This document shows positions 16 through 53,044 of a stretch of DNA of 56,682 nt, piece after piece (position 1 is the first letter of the stretch; each line of letters starts with the position of its first letter). The notes beneath the pieces are model-generated. The model was not told where the DNA came from, made no database searches, and saw nothing but the letters and a program-made list of their open reading frames with translations. This DNA comes from a virus. The stretch covers positions 1 to 56,682 of the IMG/VR virus record IMGVR_UViG_3300032086_002223; one strand, given 5' to 3'. A program made the position numbers and the translations under genes.

Positions 16-501
16 TTAATGTATAGTTTTTTTGGACAAATCTTCGACACCGAAATCATCGAACTCTTCATCCATTAAGTCATCGTATTCACCATTAGCT
101 TGCATCTCTTCTATGAGTGATGACATACGTTCTTGTAGACTTCCTCTGTCAATAGGTTCCTTATCGATGATAGGAATGGTTTCGGTCTCTACCCAATTAC
201 TCCATCTCACACATGCTTGGTCATACATAGGGATGTATTGTTTTGCAAGTGATACTGTTGCCATGATGGTGTCTTTTTCAATTGATACGACTGGTTCATC
301 AGTCATAGGGATATAAGGATAAAATTGACATACCGTGTGACCAGCTTGAAACTTTGAAGGTATTAAAGAACAATGCATCGGTAAGGTCACGTCTACACTG
401 TCTCCCCTATCTACGGTCATACCCACTATTTCTAACCCGTTCTTAAGTTTTACAACTTGATATCTCTCGGGTGTTTTGATTAGGTCTTTAGGTGTTGTCA
501 T
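16..501 (-). CDS. LSm-like hypothetical protein, 161 aa
   Basis: Residues about 15-90 look like a small beta-barrel of the LSm/Hfq type: an early strand with KLKNGLEIVG, then alternating hydrophobic strands. The last 40 residues are very acidic (EEFDDFG region) and probably disordered. Its start codon overlaps the uvsW stop (TAATG at 501), so it is translationally coupled to uvsW and probably expressed with the recombination genes. An RNA-binding role is an inference from the fold-like pattern only; no catalytic motif is visible. No own promoter is seen. Confidence is good that it is a gene and low for function. Confidence 0.75.
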   Translation of the reverse strand: MTTPKDLIKTPERYQVVKLKNGLEIVGMTVDRGDSVDVTLPMHCSLIPSKFQAGHTVCQFYPYIPMTDEPVVSIEKDTIMATVSLAKQYIPMYDQACVRWSNWVETETIPIIDKEPIDRGSLQERMSSLIEEMQANGEYDDLMDEEFDDFGVEDLSKKTIH

Positions 502-1901: not shown

Positions 1902-2576
1902 TTACACATATGGTTGACCACATGCCCACCCTACTAAAGACTTTCTTGTCCCCATGGTTACTGGTGTTACTTGATGATAAACGAATGACGGGAATACAAT
2001 CATAGTTCCAATTGCTTTTGCACTGAAGGGTGCAGAACATACCATCTTATGTACGTCAACTACCTTTTCTTTTGTTAACTGATTAAATTCATTTACAGGT
2101 TCCAACCATTGAAAATGACCACCGTTATACTCATCGGGGTCTGATAGTTGTATAGTGATAGAGAGTTTTCTTATAGTACCATCTTTGTTTTTAACACCAC
2201 CATGGTCTGTATGCCATGTATAGAATCCTGGCTTATGTCTGTCTGCAGTGTATTGTGTGTATTGATAGTTTTCGAAATAGTCTATACTGACATTCCAATC
2301 TGCATTTTGATTTGCAATCTGTAACCCATTAATAATTTTATCATTAATGTCTTTTGGTATAAAGTTATCTCTTTCAAACCATTTAACTTGTGATACTCTT
2401 AAATCTTCATTAAGACCATGACTATCTTCCACTTCCATTGGTGCATCGGGGTCATCCATATTACCACCAGTTCTTCCTTCATCCCATGGAATAACTTCTG
2501 CAGCTTTATGTATTCTTGCAACCTCATCGGGTGTCAAGTATTCATTTAAGATAATACAATTGTTTTCTAAAATCAT
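1902..2576 (-). CDS. 2OG-Fe(II) oxygenase, prolyl 4-hydroxylase-like
   Basis: Fe(II)/2-oxoglutarate dioxygenase with the double-stranded beta-helix motifs of the prolyl-hydroxylase/PKHD class. Counting from the Met at 2576, the iron ligands are H122 and D124 (WHTDHG) and H201 (VYHQV), and R211 (GTRKSL) would bind 2-oxoglutarate. The reading frame opens further to an ATG at 2603, but 2576 is preferred because it forms the TAATG overlap with the uvsY stop, a junction used repeatedly in this window. That gives 224 aa. It lies between uvsY and uvsW. The substrate is unknown: candidates are virion proteins, host proteins or DNA. Confidence 0.88.
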   Translation of the reverse strand: MILENNCIILNEYLTPDEVARIHKAAEVIPWDEGRTGGNMDDPDAPMEVEDSHGLNEDLRVSQVKWFERDNFIPKDINDKIINGLQIANQNADWNVSIDYFENYQYTQYTADRHKPGFYTWHTDHGGVKNKDGTIRKLSITIQLSDPDEYNGGHFQWLEPVNEFNQLTKEKVVDVHKMVCSAPFSAKAIGTMIVFPSFVYHQVTPVTMGTRKSLVGWACGQPYV

Positions 2577-3019
2577 TATTGTCCTGCCATAAATTTTCTC
2601 CAATCAATCGTGTTCTTGATTGTTTGGTGTCTCCAAGTTATGTTTTCCATACACTTCTGTAAGAACTGTATACAGACATTTAGATATTCAATCTTACCAT
2701 TTAAGTTTTGAATATCGTCATCTGCATTGAAGTAGTAGTTGTAATCTGACTTCATTACTTTAAGACCATCGAATGGGTCATCTTCCCATCCTAACTTGTT
2801 AATTTCTTCTTGTGAAAGTTTACCACTATACCATAACCATTTTAGTTTGGTAATCTTGGATAATTCTAATTGAAGTTTTTTGAGTGTAACTAATTTGTCT
2901 GATAGAAGACTTGAGTATTTTGCATGGAGTTTGGGAACTTCAAGAGATGATTTATCTAATTCGATGTCATCAATTTGAGTATCTTTACTCCATTCTTCTT
3001 TTAGTTGTTCTAAATTCAT
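2576..3019 (-). CDS. uvsY: UvsY-like recombination mediator
   Basis: 147-residue helical protein with the UvsY pattern: a lysine-rich N-terminal half with KLKWLWYSGKL, then a long helix ending WRHQTIKNTIDWRKFMAG. In T4, UvsY loads the UvsX recombinase onto gp32-coated single-stranded DNA. The length is close to T4 UvsY (137 aa). A textbook sigma70-type promoter ends 6 nt before the ATG and there is no Shine-Dalgarno sequence. Downstream it is coupled to the oxygenase and uvsW, giving a small recombination operon. Identification rests on sequence pattern and context. Confidence 0.88.
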   Translation of the reverse strand: MNLEQLKEEWSKDTQIDDIELDKSSLEVPKLHAKYSSLLSDKLVTLKKLQLELSKITKLKWLWYSGKLSQEEINKLGWEDDPFDGLKVMKSDYNYYFNADDDIQNLNGKIEYLNVCIQFLQKCMENITWRHQTIKNTIDWRKFMAGQ

Positions 3020-3025
3020 AATATA

Positions 3026-3054
3026 ATTATACCTTAAAAGGTGTGTTTTGTAAA
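3026..3054 (-). promoter_or_regulatory. Sigma70-type promoter for the uvsY operon
   Basis: On the minus strand, TTTACA (3049-3054) and TATAAT (3026-3031) are separated by exactly 17 nt. The -10 box ends 6 nt before the uvsY ATG at 3019, so the start site should fall on or next to the start codon. This is host-like and suits early or middle expression of uvsY, in contrast to the late boxes upstream of virion genes. Confidence 0.8.
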
Positions 3055-3059
3055 GGTAT

Positions 3060-3587
3060 TTAGGACTTTGTTTCTATAGTATATCTACCTATCCTAAAGG
3101 TTACATCACATATTACAGCTTCACCATCTGCACCCGATTGAAATTCTACACCACTTAGAGATGTGGGAAATATGTCATGAAATCTGATAAACTTATTTGC
3201 GATATTCTTGTTTGTATTTACAACTAGTGTTGCATCTGATATTTCAGATAAGAAGTCGTTTGAAGTGTAACGATTTAGTTTATCAGTTTCTGCTGATTTA
3301 GCAGGGTCATAATTTGCTGGGTCTAGTGGGACGATTGATGTCATCCAATTGTACATCTCAGTAAAGTTAGCCATATCCTCATCAACTAAAAACTGAACTT
3401 GAAGTGTTTCAAATTCTAGTTTATCGCCAGGAAAAAAAGCATCCAAACCTACACCAGCTGCCTGTATTGTTTCAGTGAATGACAAGCCAGGTAATTGTAC
3501 AGTCCTACAGAAGTATTCCACGTTTGGAATTCTGTCGATTAGAAATCGAAAGTTATTTCGATTAAGAACTGATGTGTTTATTGTCAT
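3060..3587 (-). CDS. Tail-tube-like virion protein (gp19-family paralog)
   Basis: 175 aa. The beginning (residues 10-35: NFRFLIDRIP, then FCRTVQLPGLSF) and the end (strand-rich DVTFRIGRYTIE) follow the tail-tube layout seen in the gp19 gene at 9645-10142, where the equivalent positions read RFKVFLPR and FLCKAAQIPA. It is therefore a second member of the tube fold in the same phage. T4 uses related folds for tube-initiator proteins gp48/gp54, so a baseplate-proximal tube or tube-terminator role is possible; this is inference. Its start overlaps the end of the 78-residue gene upstream by 26 nt, so both come from one message. Confidence 0.72.
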   Translation of the reverse strand: MTINTSVLNRNNFRFLIDRIPNVEYFCRTVQLPGLSFTETIQAAGVGLDAFFPGDKLEFETLQVQFLVDEDMANFTEMYNWMTSIVPLDPANYDPAKSAETDKLNRYTSNDFLSEISDATLVVNTNKNIANKFIRFHDIFPTSLSGVEFQSGADGEAVICDVTFRIGRYTIETKS

Positions 3588-3798
3588 CTAATTTAATTAC
3601 CCTATTGTTTTTTACAGTGTCATGGTAGTCGTTGTCTCTGTATGTACGGTCTACTATGGACTCACACAAATACCCGTCTTGGACATAAAGTGTTTTCATC
3701 TGTCTAGATAGAACGTCTTTAGTTTCTACACCATTAGGGAATGCATATCTTTCGAATGGCCCCTCACTAATAGTTACTTGTTTTTCGTATTTGTCCAT
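3562..3798 (-). CDS. Hypothetical protein, 78 aa
   Basis: Small polar protein with no recognisable domain; residues 1-40 alternate charged and aromatic positions (ISEGPFERYAFPNGVE). It overlaps the tail-tube-like gene by 26 nt. A late-type box CATAAATA lies exactly 5 nt before the ATG with no Shine-Dalgarno, so it heads a late transcript that includes the tube-like gene. A virion or assembly role is likely from the late promoter, but nothing in the sequence specifies it. Confidence 0.75.
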   Translation of the reverse strand: MDKYEKQVTISEGPFERYAFPNGVETKDVLSRQMKTLYVQDGYLCESIVDRTYRDNDYHDTVKNNRVIKLDDNKHISS

Positions 3799-3803
3799 AG
3801 TAG

Positions 3804-3811
3804 TATTTATG
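3804..3811 (-). promoter_or_regulatory. Late-type promoter box, 5 nt before ATG
   Basis: CATAAATA on the minus strand, followed by CTACT and the ATG at 3798. T4 late promoters carry TATAAATA at about -13 to -6, which would put +1 on the A of the start codon. Confidence 0.65.
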
Positions 3812-4056: not shown

Positions 4057-4157
4057 TAAGACCCCCCGAAGGGGGTCACCTTTGACAGTGCCATGTATAC
4101 CTGACCTGCCTCGCCATCGAATCACATTCGTCTCCTAGAGATATATCTTCAATGACT
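4057..4157 (-). ncRNA. GC-rich structured leader or small RNA candidate
   Basis: About 100 nt between the gp23 terminator and the 72-residue gene that are far richer in G and C than the surrounding DNA. On the minus strand there are several potential stems: CGAAT/ATTCG with a 3-nt loop, GGTCA/TGACC enclosing about 23 nt, and a perfect GACCCCC-TTCG-GGGGGTC hairpin at 4060-4077. An ACTAAATA box at 4163-4170 would start a transcript near 4157. No tRNA fold or riboswitch class is recognised. Two tiny reading frames exist: 13 codons, and a GTG-started 32 codons ending in an ATGA overlap with the next gene. They look less convincing than the secondary structure. Confidence 0.4.
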
Positions 4158-6953: not shown

Positions 6954-6961
6954 TATTTATA
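6954..6961 (-). promoter_or_regulatory. Late promoter for gp22-gp23
   Basis: Perfect TATAAATA on the minus strand, 29 nt before the gp22 ATG and 3 nt inside the gp21-gp22 gap. It leaves a leader of about 24 nt carrying a GGAG ribosome site, and would give extra transcription of scaffold and capsid genes, as in T4. Confidence 0.8.
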
Positions 6962-7885: not shown

Positions 7886-8064
7886 TATTCTTCTTTTTCC
7901 AGTGGAGTTTCTTCTACCTCTGATGCATTCATCCAGTCCATAGACTGTTCAACTCTCTTCATGTCAACTACTTCTGCAGCTTTCTGATTGAGTGTTTGCA
8001 TGATTTGGTCTTTTGCATCATTTAATTCACCACGTTCAATACTATTTACAATTTCTTTACTCAT
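7885..8064 (-). CDS. Small acidic prohead-core candidate, 59 aa (gp67 position)
   Basis: A complete 60-codon frame from ATG at 8062-8064 to TAA at 7885-7887, filling exactly the gap between gp20 and the 98-residue gene. It shares one base with each neighbour (TAATG at both ends). The protein starts MSKEIVNSIERGELNDA and ends in an acidic tail. It is helical and Glu/Asp/Lys-rich like T4 gp67, the small internal core protein encoded in the same slot (80 aa). The tight double coupling and position make it a real gene; the gp67 assignment is positional. Confidence 0.72.
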   Translation of the reverse strand: MSKEIVNSIERGELNDAKDQIMQTLNQKAAEVVDMKRVEQSMDWMNASEVEETPLEKEE

Positions 8065-9587
8065 TAAAACTCCTCGTCATCTCCATAGAGACCTTCTTCT
8101 TTTTCTTTTTTAATCTGTATGTCCATCTTTTCGACATCATCTTCAGATTGCATAAGAATGTTTTTTCTTACATATTCGATTGAGAAATACTTACCTACGT
8201 ATTCTGATACGTTTGACATTGTATCCATTCTCTCTCTCATGATTTCTGCATCCTTCAACTCTGTAAAGTGATTGTCTGATGCAAAATCATACTTAATAAA
8301 ATCTGCAAAACCGTCAAACTCTTCGGGTTTTACAACGTTCTTGAGTATTAACTGAGTTCTTAAGATATCAGTAAACACTCTTGAAAACTTCATTTGAAGT
8401 CTGTTGGTGAACTTATTAAATTTAAGTTCATCCCTATTAATCTCTGATGCTCTTCCTAAAGAGAATCCAGCATCGGATTCTAATCTAGAGATAGGTACAC
8501 TTAAAGACTTGTATAACTTCTTCTTGAAGTATTCGACATCTTCAATCTCTGACAGATTTTGTCCGCCAGGCAGAGTTGTTATCTCTGTACCTCTACCACC
8601 TTCTCTACGTGGTAACCAGTAATCTTCCATCATCGACATATGTTTTCTGTCGTCTTTGATTTCCCCTGTAGCTGCATTATAAACAAGTTTATTTCTATAC
8701 TTGTTCATCACATCTGCAAGGTACTGTTCTGCCTTTGCTTTTGGAAGGTTACCTACATCAATGTAATAAATTCTTCTCTCAGGAGCTCTTGTGATTCTGT
8801 ATATAACAAGTGCATCCTCCATCATTGATAACTGATTTGCAGTCTTCAATGCCTTATGAAGATATCCTATTACTACATTCTTACTATAGTCTAATAGTCC
8901 CGATGTTGTATATGTTACAGCTTCGGGTGCAATCCTCATAGTTGTACCATCACTGGTACCTGTCTTGTTGAATCCTTTATCGTTGAACATAAAGAACTCT
9001 TCAACTTTCTTAATCTTTTCTATCTTGGTAGTTGCGTCTTTTTCTTTTTCAACGTTTCTGACTTTCTTAATCTTGAGAGGGTCAATGTTTCTCAAGTCCA
9101 CAATACCTTTCTTTACATTTTTTTTGTCCACGACTTTATGGAAGTAAATCCTTCCATCAACGTACCATTTTCTGAATAATTCATGAGAGTTCTGAGGGAA
9201 CTTCATTAGGTGGAGAAGATAATCAAACTCTTCTTGAATCTTTGACTTTATGTTTGCAGTCAACTTTACTCTACTCAAGTCGAGAGATACTATATTATCC
9301 TTGACATCAGAAGTGATACACTCGTTGACAATGTCTTCAATAGCAGAGTCACATTCGGGTATCAATGATATTTCACGATACCTTCTAATGAGTTCAACCT
9401 CATTTTTGATACCACCTTCCATGTCAACATATGCACCATAAGCTGCACCTGAGACATACCCTGCTTGTTGTTGAATAACGGGGGTTCCGTCATCCTCAAC
9501 TGGTGGTACGAATGAAGGGGCCGAGACTTTCTCTTTCCCTTGTTGTGTTTCTGTTTTACGAGTTATCTCGAATCCAAATAGTTCCAT
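8064..9587 (-). CDS. gp20: Portal vertex protein gp20
   Basis: 507 aa, near T4 gp20 (524). Forms the dodecameric ring at the unique vertex through which DNA enters and to which the neck attaches. Characteristic blocks include a YREISLIPECDSAIEDIVNE-type helix near 70-90, the YYIDVGNLPKAKAEQYL stretch near 275-290 and the PRREGGRGTEITTLPGGQNL region near 325-345. A TATAAATA box lies only 9 nt before the ATG with no Shine-Dalgarno between them. It heads a message continuing into the two small core genes and gp21. Confidence 0.97.
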   Translation of the reverse strand: MELFGFEITRKTETQQGKEKVSAPSFVPPVEDDGTPVIQQQAGYVSGAAYGAYVDMEGGIKNEVELIRRYREISLIPECDSAIEDIVNECITSDVKDNIVSLDLSRVKLTANIKSKIQEEFDYLLHLMKFPQNSHELFRKWYVDGRIYFHKVVDKKNVKKGIVDLRNIDPLKIKKVRNVEKEKDATTKIEKIKKVEEFFMFNDKGFNKTGTSDGTTMRIAPEAVTYTTSGLLDYSKNVVIGYLHKALKTANQLSMMEDALVIYRITRAPERRIYYIDVGNLPKAKAEQYLADVMNKYRNKLVYNAATGEIKDDRKHMSMMEDYWLPRREGGRGTEITTLPGGQNLSEIEDVEYFKKKLYKSLSVPISRLESDAGFSLGRASEINRDELKFNKFTNRLQMKFSRVFTDILRTQLILKNVVKPEEFDGFADFIKYDFASDNHFTELKDAEIMRERMDTMSNVSEYVGKYFSIEYVRKNILMQSEDDVEKMDIQIKKEKEEGLYGDDEEF

Positions 9588-9596
9588 AATATATGT

Positions 9597-9604
9597 ATTT
9601 ATAC
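9597..9604 (-). promoter_or_regulatory. Late promoter for gp20, near-leaderless
   Basis: Perfect TATAAATA on the minus strand, 9 nt before the gp20 ATG. With T4-like spacing the transcript would have a leader of about 4 nt, too short for a Shine-Dalgarno site. Confidence 0.72.
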
Positions 9605-12193: not shown

Positions 12194-12201
12194 TATTTAT
12201 A
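12194..12201 (-). promoter_or_regulatory. Late promoter for gp18-gp19
   Basis: TATAAATA on the minus strand in the gap between the gp17 stop and gp18 start, 40 nt before the gp18 ATG. The predicted leader of about 35 nt holds the GGAG ribosome site. Confidence 0.78.
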
Positions 12202-16930: not shown

Positions 16931-16963
16931 AGTACTGTTTCCATTTTTTTAAATGTTCAATAC

Positions 16964-16971
16964 TATTTATA
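16964..16971 (-). promoter_or_regulatory. Late promoter for gp13-gp17
   Basis: TATAAATA on the minus strand between the small membrane-protein gene and gp13, 33 nt before the gp13 ATG. It separates the essential neck block from the accessory cassette upstream. Confidence 0.78.
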
Positions 16972-16975
16972 ACAA

Positions 16976-17242
16976 TTATTCTTGGAAAAAAGTACGAGAT
17001 TGGAGTCTGTCGAGTTTTTCATCGATTCTTTCGATAGATATCATCAATCTATCCATAGCTTGTTGGAATTCATCCTTAGAAACGTATTCTTTTGCTATCT
17101 CTTCTCTTGTTTTGTTTAGTAGTATGTCGATTCTTTTCTGTTCATTTAAAGCACTACGCACAAAAAAACCCACTGGTAGTAAGACCAGTGTTAAAAAGAG
17201 GTTCCATATAAGATGGGGGTCGATGAATATTCCTTGTTCCAT
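16976..17242 (-). CDS. Small membrane protein with coiled coil, 88 aa
   Basis: Residues about 11-29 form one hydrophobic segment (LIWNLFLTLVLLPVGFFV) followed by a charged helix with heptad-like spacing (about 38-84). The layout is a membrane anchor with a cytoplasmic coiled coil, as in several small phage proteins including some holin-accessory or XhlA-like proteins. A lysis role is possible, but no lysin or spanin is visible nearby. A CCTAAATA late-type box lies exactly 5 nt before the ATG, so it can be transcribed late and without a leader. Confidence 0.75.
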   Translation of the reverse strand: MEQGIFIDPHLIWNLFLTLVLLPVGFFVRSALNEQKRIDILLNKTREEIAKEYVSKDEFQQAMDRLMISIERIDEKLDRLQSRTFFQE

Positions 17243-17247
17243 ACGAT

Positions 17248-17255
17248 TATTTAGG
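17248..17255 (-). promoter_or_regulatory. Late-type box, 5 nt before the membrane-protein ATG
   Basis: CCTAAATA on the minus strand followed by ATCGT and the ATG at 17242. The box overlaps the last codons of the upstream oxygenase gene. Same box-to-ATG spacing as at 3804, 32929 and 53037. Confidence 0.5.
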
Positions 17256-18003
17256 TAATCGTATCGTCCTCAAGGGGTTCCAATGGAGGCATATGACCAG
17301 TAATGTCTTGATAGTTTAGGGGATATCCATCTTGGTCTAAATCAAATACCCATGGATAATATCTATTGGTTAATGACTCACCAATCTTTATTTGATTATT
17401 CATTTGATAATTGATATTGAAAGATATACTGTATCTTTCTTTTTGTGTCATGTTGGGTTCTACCATGTGCATTAACCCACTAGGGAACAACATTAATTTA
17501 CCAGTAATGGGTTGTTTATGAGATGACATTTGTATCATAGGTGATGGTGGCATGTCGTGTACTACCTTTTCGTCTGTGTCTATGAAATCAATATCTCCCT
17601 CGTCTCCATCTGCATGAATATAGAATACACCACTATACCAACAACCATTATGTAAGTGAGGTGAGTTCCAACACATATGTCCATTAATATTTGCCCAAGA
17701 GTTTCCAATCTGTACAGACACATCACCATTATTGAATCCATAAAAAGGTAAGACTTCATCATCAAACATACGTGTGATTCTGTTCATTAATTTTTGAAAT
17801 CTAGGATTTGATTCACATCCATCATTAGATTGCCATCCATTTCTATTAGATACCATTCTACCCTCATCCCTAGCTCTCATACCATCCATTTCATCTTTCA
17901 ATGATTGTAGGTATTCATATGATACACCCTGTCTCTCATGCAAGTTTTCATCTGTTAGTTGTCTATGAAAAACATAGTTTGGGAATAATAATTCTACTGC
18001 CAT
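17251..18003 (-). CDS. 2OG-Fe(II) oxygenase, TIGR02466-like
   Basis: 250-residue putative Fe(II)/2-oxoglutarate oxygenase. The iron-binding segment is SPHLHNGCWYSGVFYIHAD (H116 and H118 region) and the distal part is LFPSGLMHMVEP (H179), followed by ERYSISFN with R190 as the candidate 2-oxoglutarate ligand. This matches the TIGR02466 layout common in marine T4-like phages. The N-terminus names a conserved entry (LLFPNYVFHRQL). Substrate unknown. It follows the gene at 18007 by 3 nt in the accessory cassette. Confidence 0.85.
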   Translation of the reverse strand: MAVELLFPNYVFHRQLTDENLHERQGVSYEYLQSLKDEMDGMRARDEGRMVSNRNGWQSNDGCESNPRFQKLMNRITRMFDDEVLPFYGFNNGDVSVQIGNSWANINGHMCWNSPHLHNGCWYSGVFYIHADGDEGDIDFIDTDEKVVHDMPPSPMIQMSSHKQPITGKLMLFPSGLMHMVEPNMTQKERYSISFNINYQMNNQIKIGESLTNRYYPWVFDLDQDGYPLNYQDITGHMPPLEPLEDDTIT

Positions 18004-32590: not shown

Positions 32591-32923
32591 CTATCTTGTT
32601 ACGCCGGGTGTTATTATTGCTTGTCCCTCGATAACTCGGGTCTTTACACCTGAACTATCTGTTATTATTAAATCATATACATACCTACCAGCTTTTAGAC
32701 CTGTGGTTTGTGTATCTGTTAAAGTAAGTGTTACCTTACCAGTTGATGGAGTTATAGATGTACTAAACGTTTCTGCAATGGTTGTGGAACCATATGTTTT
32801 TCTTATTTGTGCAGCTGCAGAATATCCATTCAAGTCTATGATATTATCACTAGTATCAGTGACATCGATAGTAACTTCGTAATCGGTGCCTTGGTCTATA
32901 AATATGTTTGCTATGATTGCCAT
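32591..32923 (-). CDS. Ig-like beta-sandwich protein, 110 aa
   Basis: Alternating hydrophobic strands throughout, with DYEVTIDVTDTSDNIIDLNGYSAAAQIR near 14-40 and GRYVYDLIITDSSGVKTRVIEG near 80-100. The layout is like the Ig-fold N-terminal modules of phage baseplate or receptor-binding proteins. A TATAAATA box ends 5 nt before the ATG and there is no Shine-Dalgarno, so the message should be leaderless. It begins the fibre-like unit that runs to the terminator at 29252. Confidence 0.75.
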   Translation of the reverse strand: MAIIANIFIDQGTDYEVTIDVTDTSDNIIDLNGYSAAAQIRKTYGSTTIAETFSTSITPSTGKVTLTLTDTQTTGLKAGRYVYDLIITDSSGVKTRVIEGQAIITPGVTR

Positions 32924-32928
32924 ATAAC

Positions 32929-32936
32929 TATTTATA
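32929..32936 (-). promoter_or_regulatory. Late promoter, 5 nt before the 110-aa gene
   Basis: Perfect TATAAATA on the minus strand followed by GTTAT and the ATG at 32923. Confidence 0.75.
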
Positions 32937-46280: not shown

Positions 46281-46288
46281 TATTTATA
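46281..46288 (-). promoter_or_regulatory. Late promoter for gp8 and downstream genes
   Basis: Perfect TATAAATA on the minus strand, 27 nt before the gp8 ATG and 4 nt after the stop codon of the 1289-residue gene. The leader holds a GGAG site. Confidence 0.77.
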
Positions 46289-50734: not shown

Positions 50735-52606
50735 TTATGAGTATGTTGGGGTTGAGTTAAATCCAACTCCAGCACTCGATTCACCACTTGCGATGGTGTC
50801 TGCCTCACCTTTAACCGTTACGTTACTCAACTTGATGTCAATTAATTGACCTCTAGAAGAGACGATGTCATTACTGACTGGTGTCACGGTGAAAGCTATG
50901 GTAGAATCAGCATTACTTGTATCAGTAATATTAATTCCATCAATCTTTATTTCTCCAGTACCATAGTTTACAGTTCCTGCTTCTGAGTCTACATAAACTC
51001 TGTTTGCACCTGACTGATAGTAACGTCTTATTTTACCTAAACCGTCATCATCAAAGAACTGTGTATTTACACTATCTCCTGAAACTTTAAAACCTGTTGA
51101 TTGTAATATACCACCACCTGATGCATTGTGTCCATCATGTGGGTGATATAGTCCATTACCAAAAGTTATAGTATAACCTAATGATTTATTTTTGGTAATA
51201 ATTTGTTCGTATTTTAATTTGACTCTTGATATACTTGAGAGTATAGAAGAGTTTGCATTATCTATTGCACTAGAAAACTTAGAATATCTAAAGATAGAAT
51301 CAAATCCATTTAGGAAATTACTATCATAATTATCGATTGCAGTTTCTACTGCACTTTCTAGTTCACCTAAACTAACTGTTGCTTCTCTTGGATTGTATTT
51401 GAAAACAACATTAAGTATAATGTCAATTACTTTTGCATCTACTATGACTGGTCTTACAGTTAATATGTTAAGGTCTCTTAATTTTGCAACCACGTCTGCC
51501 TTCTCAGCTGTTGAAAGGTAATTACTGTTAACTGGTTTTAATGATAAGAATATCTTACCATACTCGGGTGGATTGTTATCTTCCCCACCCCATATTGCAA
51601 TTGCATCTGCATTCGGATAGAACTCTGACACTTTAGATTTGTAGTCATCAAGTGTTACCAGTCTGTTCTGTGATGCATAAGATTTAGATGCTTTGAATTT
51701 TATTGATTCAATAGATTCTTTTTCTGCACCACCATAAGCAGGTGTAACATTTTGTATTGATGCATCTGAGAAACCATTGATGTTATCTACTAGTGCAAAG
51801 TTCAAAGCACCATTTGCATGTACCACATCTGTTACAAGATATGTGACCTGAATGATATCACCATCAAAAGGTTTTGCACCTAGTGTATCATCTCCGAAAT
51901 AAAATTCTGTGTATCCATCTTCATTTTCTTGAGTGAAGTAAACCTTTGCAGTTGTTGTAATTGATGATACGTTTTCTGCTTTAGTGTAAGATGATGTCTT
52001 ACCATCACTAATCAATTTTACACCTAAGGTCGTAACATCACTTCTTAAATTTGATAATACAAACTTAGGATTTTTTTCTGTGGAGTCGTATACAAATGTA
52101 TCGGTTACATAGACACCTTGTTTTACATTAACACTTGGATAAACAAAAGTGGTACCATTCTGAGTAGGAGTTACAGATGCTGTTGCAACAAACTCATAGG
52201 TTGTTCCGTTATAAACAGTAGAGAATCTTTGTCCTCTAGGTAATGTCATAACTGCAGATGATGGAATAGTTCCATCTGCATTCCTGACTCCTACCAAATT
52301 AATATCAAAAACTGATGTTGCACTTGATACACTTGAAGGTGTAAATCCTAAATCTTTTGCACGTGATACTACGTTCTTTCTGATTTGTGCAGAATCTAAA
52401 AACATCTCACTAGCTGCAAGGTTAGTATTGAATGCAGAGATGTGAGATGAATATGCAAGAAGGTCAATTAGTGTTGCAAGGTTAGAACCTTCGAAGTTAT
52501 AATCCTTGAATGCATCTTGTCCTTTTAGGAAGTTTTTGAGGTTACTCGATATATCATCGAATCCTATGTCTGTAACGTTGAGTGTTGAACTTTTTACTTT
52601 TGCCAT
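50735..52606 (-). CDS. gp6: Baseplate wedge protein gp6
   Basis: 623 aa, close to T4 gp6 (660). The N-terminal SSNLKNFLKGQDAFKDYNFEG (read in parts) and AYSSHISAFNTNLAASEMFLDSA blocks (about 50-75) and a LVTLDDYKSKVSEFYPNADAI region near 315-335 are characteristic. gp6 dimers link wedges into the baseplate ring; the protein belongs to the Mu gp47/P2 J-like family. It shares the TAATG junction with gp25. Confidence 0.95.
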   Translation of the reverse strand: MAKVKSSTLNVTDIGFDDISSNLKNFLKGQDAFKDYNFEGSNLATLIDLLAYSSHISAFNTNLAASEMFLDSAQIRKNVVSRAKDLGFTPSSVSSATSVFDINLVGVRNADGTIPSSAVMTLPRGQRFSTVYNGTTYEFVATASVTPTQNGTTFVYPSVNVKQGVYVTDTFVYDSTEKNPKFVLSNLRSDVTTLGVKLISDGKTSSYTKAENVSSITTTAKVYFTQENEDGYTEFYFGDDTLGAKPFDGDIIQVTYLVTDVVHANGALNFALVDNINGFSDASIQNVTPAYGGAEKESIESIKFKASKSYASQNRLVTLDDYKSKVSEFYPNADAIAIWGGEDNNPPEYGKIFLSLKPVNSNYLSTAEKADVVAKLRDLNILTVRPVIVDAKVIDIILNVVFKYNPREATVSLGELESAVETAIDNYDSNFLNGFDSIFRYSKFSSAIDNANSSILSSISRVKLKYEQIITKNKSLGYTITFGNGLYHPHDGHNASGGGILQSTGFKVSGDSVNTQFFDDDGLGKIRRYYQSGANRVYVDSEAGTVNYGTGEIKIDGINITDTSNADSTIAFTVTPVSNDIVSSRGQLIDIKLSNVTVKGEADTIASGESSAGVGFNSTPTYS

Positions 52607-53031
52607 TATCTTACCCTACTTAAAGTAACTGTTAATTGTTGTTTATCTAAATTAGTCTGTCTAATTCTGTACGATATCTTTACGTCTACTTCTCCTCTAC
52701 CAGTTACTTCTCCGAACTTAACTTCTACTCCTGTAACTCTTGGTTCAAAATCTAAAATAGTTTTTTTAATATCTTCTGCATACTTGTAATGATATCTAGG
52801 GTTATCTAATTCAAATAACATCTCCCTAATATTACTACCAAATCCTGGCTTGAATGGTCTCTCATAATAGTTAGTCATCATGATATTACGTACAGCTCTC
52901 TTGACTGCATCGGTATCATACTTTAATGATATGTCACCAGTAACTGGATGTGGTCTGAAAAATAAATCTAAGTCTGCGTAGACTTTTTCTGATACTGTTT
53001 TCCCACTTGAGTTGATTTCTTTGTATGCCAT
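52606..53031 (-). CDS. gp25: Baseplate wedge protein gp25
   Basis: 141 aa (T4 gp25 is 132), the small lysozyme-like-fold subunit of the wedge that initiates sheath assembly. Key block: NIMMTNYYERPFKPGFGSNIRE (read in parts, about 49-70) then LFELDNP, and a C-terminal ISYRIRQTNLDKQQLTVTLSRVR-type strand pair. A TATAAATA box lies exactly 5 nt before the ATG with no Shine-Dalgarno. One-base TAATG overlap with gp6, as expected for a wedge operon. Confidence 0.95.
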   Translation of the reverse strand: MAYKEINSSGKTVSEKVYADLDLFFRPHPVTGDISLKYDTDAVKRAVRNIMMTNYYERPFKPGFGSNIREMLFELDNPRYHYKYAEDIKKTILDFEPRVTGVEVKFGEVTGRGEVDVKISYRIRQTNLDKQQLTVTLSRVR

Positions 53032-53036
53032 CTAAC

Positions 53037-53044
53037 TATTTATA
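53037..53044 (-). promoter_or_regulatory. Late promoter, 5 nt before gp25
   Basis: Perfect TATAAATA on the minus strand followed by GTTAG and the ATG at 53031; +1 is predicted at the start codon. It overlaps the gap after the 497-residue gene (stop at 53047). Confidence 0.77.

Follow-up and report, generated by a model that had tools for sequence, protein, structure and literature searches.

Results and Discussion

A group of marine viruses related to phage T4, including phages known to kill SAR11 bacteria, appears to start many of its mRNAs exactly on the first base of the gene with no ribosome-binding leader, which would represent a second way of initiating translation within one virus. This conclusion was drawn from sequence alone and has not yet been shown in cells, as no RNA 5' end mapped in these phages was found. 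The window analyzed in this study is a 56,682-nucleotide virus record (IMGVR_UViG_3300032086_002223) carrying T4-like structural genes, nearly all on the - strand, including gp23-, gp20-, gp18-, gp19- and gp25-like genes. Four genes of the window have a T4-type late promoter box (TAAATA) exactly 5 nt before the ATG, and the pattern is modest in the window alone but overwhelming when relatives are considered. The original prediction, which proposed leaderless late mRNAs from these four boxes and named a distance peak at 5 nt in related genomes as a test, is therefore supported, although it placed the gp20 box 9 nt from the ATG (the distance is 8 nt) and did not recognize that sigma-70 promoters of the same phages behave similarly at 6 nt.

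Late promoter boxes in the window

All four boxes lie on the - strand. The gp25 box (TATAAATA; 53037-53044, with TAAATA at 53037-53042) is followed by the spacer GTTAG (53032-53036) and the ATG (53029-53031) of gp25 (52606-53031), a baseplate wedge gene (phrog_261, 6e-35; PF04965, 3.6e-14). The second box (TATAAATA; 32929-32936, with TAAATA at 32929-32934) is followed by GTTAT and the ATG of a 110-aa tail-fibre-assembly-like protein (32591-32923; phrog_1084, 1.5e-28; phrog_3304, 3e-22). The third (CCTAAATA; TAAATA at 17248-17253) is followed by ATCGT and the ATG of an 88-aa lipoprotein/membrane-like gene (16976-17242; phrog_462, 3e-8), to which a 101-aa ORF at 16953-17258 (+) is fully antisense and probably spurious. 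The fourth (CATAAATA; TAAATA at 3804-3809) is followed by CTACT and the ATG of a 78-aa protein of unknown family (3562-3798) just before the tail tube gene, for which no PHROG and no Pfam family above the cut-off were identified. All four genes are predicted to be leaderless. The gp20 portal protein gene (8064-9587 (-); phrog_213, 5e-207) has a TATAAATA box at 9596-9603 (-), with TAAATA at 9596-9601, and is predicted to be near-leaderless, with a leader of 3 nt (5'-AUU-AUG). It belongs to a small 8-nt class, also seen in HTVC008M and Mosig (gp25 of Mosig), which would give 3-nt leaders reading 5'-RUU-AUG.

Other late genes in the window display a contrasting, leadered mode, as originally predicted. 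The late boxes of gp8 (46281-46288 (-)), gp18 (12194-12201 (-)), the gp22-like scaffold gene (6954-6961 (-)) and the gp13-like neck gene (16964-16971 (-)) are located 27, 40, 29 and 33 nt from their respective ATGs, with SD-like 4-mers (GGAG for gp8) found for gp8, gp18 and gp22 but none for gp13. Of the 45 listed starts in the window, 13 have a TAAATA within 40 nt and four of these lie at exactly 5 nt (nominal binomial P = 2.1e-4 for that distance, 0.009 after allowing for 41 distances). In addition, a perfect, terminator-like hairpin (GACCCCC-TTCG-GGGGGTC followed by TTATT) was observed at 4060-4077 (-), between the gp23-like gene and a 72-aa gene, and a 2OG-Fe(II) oxygenase-like gene (phrog_81) and a gene matching a PHROG named methylamine utilization (phrog_471) were found among the structural genes, at 17251-18003 (-) and 16-501 (-).

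Distribution of box-to-start distances in related phages

In 87 IMG/VR loci around gp25 (1.02 Mb), which were chosen by likeness to the window's gp25, 202 distinct box-to-first-ATG distances of 0-40 nt were identified, of which 72 are exactly 5 nt, with 2 at 4 nt and 9 at 6 nt. Of the 14 other arrangements of AAAATT, only the two that overlap the same TATAAATA octamer (ATAAAT at 6 nt and TATAAA at 7 nt) show a peak. Of 55 distinct contexts for gp25 itself, 52 are at 5 nt, one is at 4 nt and two could not be evaluated, and the distance is kept over gp25 identities down to about 35-40%. There are 28 different spacers among all 5-nt starts.

The same pattern was observed in whole records processed alike, where the number of boxes at 5 nt over all boxes within 40 nt of a start was 3/12 in the window, 8/34 in G001, 7/21 in G002, 10/29 in G005, 4/14 in G006, 9/26 in G007, 8/20 in G008, 7/31 in G009 and 5/15 in G011 (all G numbers denote related genomes or contigs), 11/36 in HTVC008M, 6/38 in Mosig, 3/34 in Melnitz (P 0.05), 4/66 in P-SSM2 (P 0.08), 1/44 in T4, 1/33 in Ochrobactrum phage OC, 0/26 in Syn9, 0/32 in Syn1 and 0/35 in KVP40. 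Excluding G001, a near copy of the window, the nine focal records together have 64 of 204 boxes at exactly 5 nt (nominal P 2e-51, assuming independence and even spread). Genes were called by a greedy ORF choice rather than by Prodigal, and the caller loses the 88-aa gene of the window, such that three rather than four 5-nt starts are counted there; G003, G004, G010, S-PM2, phiM12, Cr30, C48C1 and Variovorax were not retrieved whole and were dropped. T4, KVP40 and the Synechococcus phages lack the peak, which is weak in Mosig and weaker in Melnitz. Since choosing the candidate ATG nearest a box could favor short distances, the analysis was repeated with first-ATG-only starts (the 87 loci above), with raw triplets without ORFs (see below) and with GenBank starts, and the peak remained in each case. 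Using GenBank starts in stretches of about 40 kb, 7 of 15 boxed starts lie at 5 nt in HTVC008M (45 CDSs), compared to 1 of 12 in Melnitz (62 CDSs) and 0 of 6 in Syn1 (59 CDSs).

Orthologous genes mostly jump between distances of 4-8 nt and 14 nt or more. The gp25 distance is 5 nt in ten of ten focal records including G001, but 8 nt in Mosig, 16 in Melnitz, 10 in P-SSM2 and 23 in KVP40. The gp20 distance is 8, 8, 5, 5, 5, 6 and 6 nt in the window, G001, G002, G005, G008, G009 and G011, and 25-37 nt in Mosig, Melnitz, Syn1, P-SSM2, Ochrobactrum phage OC and T4, while Syn9 has 2 nt and HTVC008M and KVP40 have none. The 110-aa gene is at 5 nt in the window, G001, G002, G005, G007 and G008, and the 88-aa gene is at 5 nt in the window, G001, G002, G005 and G008 but at 30 and 40 nt in G009 and G011. 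In G008, G009, G011, HTVC008M and Mosig, the 5-nt box is found at gp19, the gene next to the 78-aa gene, instead. In contrast, gp8 is at 15-40 nt in all twelve focal, Mosig and Melnitz records.

Evidence for leaderless mRNAs

Three independent signs place the first base of the predicted transcript on the A of the ATG. First, the T4 late box is published at -13 to -6 (PMC1524935), about one helical turn upstream of the start (PMC2988020), and five spacer bases would then put +1 on the A. Second, in 91 leadered late boxes of the focal set, where no ATG interferes, a pyrimidine-purine step with the purine at the sixth base after TAAATA was found in 55%, compared to 12-33% at the other 13 positions; the corresponding values were 46% of 24 in T4, 52% of 31 in KVP40, 37% of 94 in cyanophages and 35% of 48 in Mosig plus Melnitz, where the third base is as high. 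As bacterial transcription starts are likely to favor such a step, the probable start base is the same where no ATG is present, although this support is indirect. Third, the sigma-70 -10 box (TATAAT) peaks at 6 nt from the ATG (20 of 114, P 6e-12), which is the geometry of sigma-70 itself, and 21 of 26 boxes at 6-7 nt have a TTGACA match of at least 4 of 6 at 16-18 nt, compared to 227 of 1144 for all TATAAT. This peak is uneven, with G009 (9) and G005 (5) contributing 14 of 20 and HTVC008M having only 1 of 19. In the window, it is represented by a UvsY-like recombination mediator (2576-3019 (-); phrog_231, 2.7e-38; PF11056, 2e-24), predicted to be leaderless from its sigma-70 promoter, with TATAAT at 3026-3031 (-), 6 nt before the ATG, and a -35 element TTTACA at 3049-3054 (17-nt spacing); a late box lies at 3057-3062.

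The 5-nt peak is specific to ATG. Among raw triplets following 992 boxes, ATG occurred 79 times at 5 nt compared to 22.1 expected, while GTG (16) and TTG (18) were both within the range seen at other distances. Likewise, TAAATA-N5-ATG occurred 104 times compared to 14 backward controls in 12 records, whereas TAAATA-N5-GTG occurred 20 times compared to 27 in 13 records. SD-like 4-mers at -17 to -4 were identified in 5 of 64 five-nt genes (background 9%), 64 of 94 leadered genes and 335 of 723 unboxed genes, although the contrast is partly forced, since a box at -11 to -6 leaves little room for an SD site. The first 45 nt of the mRNA were slightly less structured in 5-nt genes (mean -3.1 compared to -3.5 and -3.9 kcal/mol), a difference too small to use.

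The boxes resemble the TATAAATA octamer (A at 0.77 before TAAATA in the logo of the 64 five-nt boxes) and lie before late structural genes. Homologues of the late sigma factor gp55 were identified by tblastn with T4 gp55 in all focal records over 85 kb (G001, G002, G005, G008, G009 and HTVC008M) and in Mosig, Melnitz and the cyanophages; there was no hit in the window, G006, G007 and G011, which are fragments, nor in Ochrobactrum phage OC.

Taken together, the explanation considered highly likely is that this group of marine T4-like phages (relatives of the window and HTVC008M, more weakly Mosig) makes a good share of its late mRNAs leaderless. The gp55-type sigma factor would recognize TATAAATA and RNA polymerase would start on the sixth base after it, such that the mRNA begins 5'-AUG and is presumably started by 70S ribosomes without Shine-Dalgarno pairing; both the start base and 70S initiation are inferred. 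Other late genes (gp8, gp18, gp22) keep a 15-45-nt leader, most with an SD site, and host-type sigma-70 promoters in some of the same phages would likewise give leaderless mRNAs at their own spacing of 6 nt.

Alternative explanations

There are several potential alternative explanations for the observed spacing, each of which is considered unlikely. The one that survives best is that the boxes are promoters but that the genes are mainly translated from longer upstream mRNAs, by coupling or from a long-spaced SD, with the short distance merely saving space. Many boxes lie close to the upstream stop (39 of 61 within 20 nt, median 7 nt), and GGAG/AGGA-type 4-mers sit directly upstream of the box, about 13 or more nt from the ATG, in 22 of 70 five-nt starts of the 87 loci (10 of 64 in whole records) compared to 6 of 94 leadered boxes (Fisher 4e-5, inflated by kinship); therefore, read-through mRNAs may also be translated from a long-spaced SD. 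However, saving space does not predict a spike at exactly 5 nt (62 at 5 nt compared to 2, 5, 3 and 4 at 4, 6, 7 and 8 nt) that is kept among divergent gp25 genes, and leadered boxes lie as close to upstream stops (median 9 nt).

Still less likely, the AT-rich TAAATA could be a translation element, for example for ribosomal protein S1, rather than a promoter. SD-poor, AT-rich upstream signals are described for some bacteria (PMC3160421), and the SAR11 genome sampled has few SD-like sites (10% of 393 genes, 4% background, compared to 59% of leadered late genes of the focal phages by the same strict motif). However, arrangements of AAAATT that do not overlap the octamer show no peak, the motif is the one found 15-45 nt before SD-led late genes, TATAAT peaks one base further off with a -35 element that a translation element would not need, and leadered boxes show an initiator step at the same base. 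Chance or shared descent of a few sites, although compatible with the modest P value of the window alone and the kinship of many gp25 loci, is refuted by the occurrence of the peak at unrelated genes on both strands, the 28 different spacers of fixed length, and its absence from Syn9, Syn1, KVP40 and T4 processed identically.

Alphaproteobacterial hosts are not supported as a general cause, since Ochrobactrum phage OC has only 1 of 33 boxes at 5 nt and no exact TAAATA-N5-ATG was found in Sinorhizobium phiM12 and Caulobacter Cr30, which were not retrieved whole. In 12 SAR11 genomes, TATAAT-N6-ATG was little above the backward control, and 148 operon-head genes of one genome gave no clear peak, results that are inconclusive.

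Comparison with known systems

T4 late promoters share the TATAAATA box, the lack of need for a -35 element, gp55 and the initiator step 6 bases after the box, but T4 boxes lie mostly 12-30 nt before the ATG, most leadered ones with an SD site, and only 1 of 44 boxed starts is at 5 nt. Leaderless mRNAs are known to be common in some alphaproteobacteria, such as Caulobacter (375, 9.6% of CDSs; PMC4117421), where transcripts begin at the A of the AUG without an SD; those use host sigma factors, while the box observed here is mostly that of a phage late sigma factor. The inference of leaderlessness from a -10 signal near -12 of the start has been applied to bacteria (PMC3160421), and phage transcripts have been remarked to be often leaderless (PMC5312081). 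Lambda is a named leaderless case (PMC3160421; cI in PMC9031893), but cI is a single repressor message, compared to many structural genes in a group of lytic-type phages here. HTVC008M and Mosig are recorded on SAR11 strain HTCC1062 (Ca. P. ubique), and HTVC008M has the 5-nt mode at gp25, gp2-, gp4- and tape-measure-like genes. In a gp20 tree, the clade of the window, whose own host is unknown, and the HTVC008M-Mosig-Melnitz branch are separate branches beside the cyanophages, in an order that is only weakly supported. A survey of pelagimyophages reported that late-promoter prediction was unsuccessful in them (PMC7029224), and 15 late promoters have been predicted in Melnitz (PMC9004378). No report of leaderless late mRNAs in T4-like or SAR11 phages was found in the openly licensed literature searched, although prior mention elsewhere cannot be excluded.

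It is possible, though doubtful on present evidence, that the two modes are a regulatory device, in which infection shifts the host's ribosomes or initiation factors so that leaderless and SD-led late mRNAs are translated at different times or ratios. This would explain why gp25 is predicted to be leaderless in all ten focal records while gp8 is leadered in all of them, and why sigma-70 and gp55 promoters both converge on the A of the AUG.

T4-like phages are the textbook case of late promoters followed by SD-led genes, whereas this marine group, including isolates that kill SAR11, seems to have fused promoter and start codon at many late genes and at some sigma-70-driven ones. This may help explain why late promoters were not found in pelagimyophages by the usual search (PMC7029224), gives a simple rule for annotating starts and operons in very abundant ocean viruses, and makes translation initiation in SAR11 directly testable through its phages.
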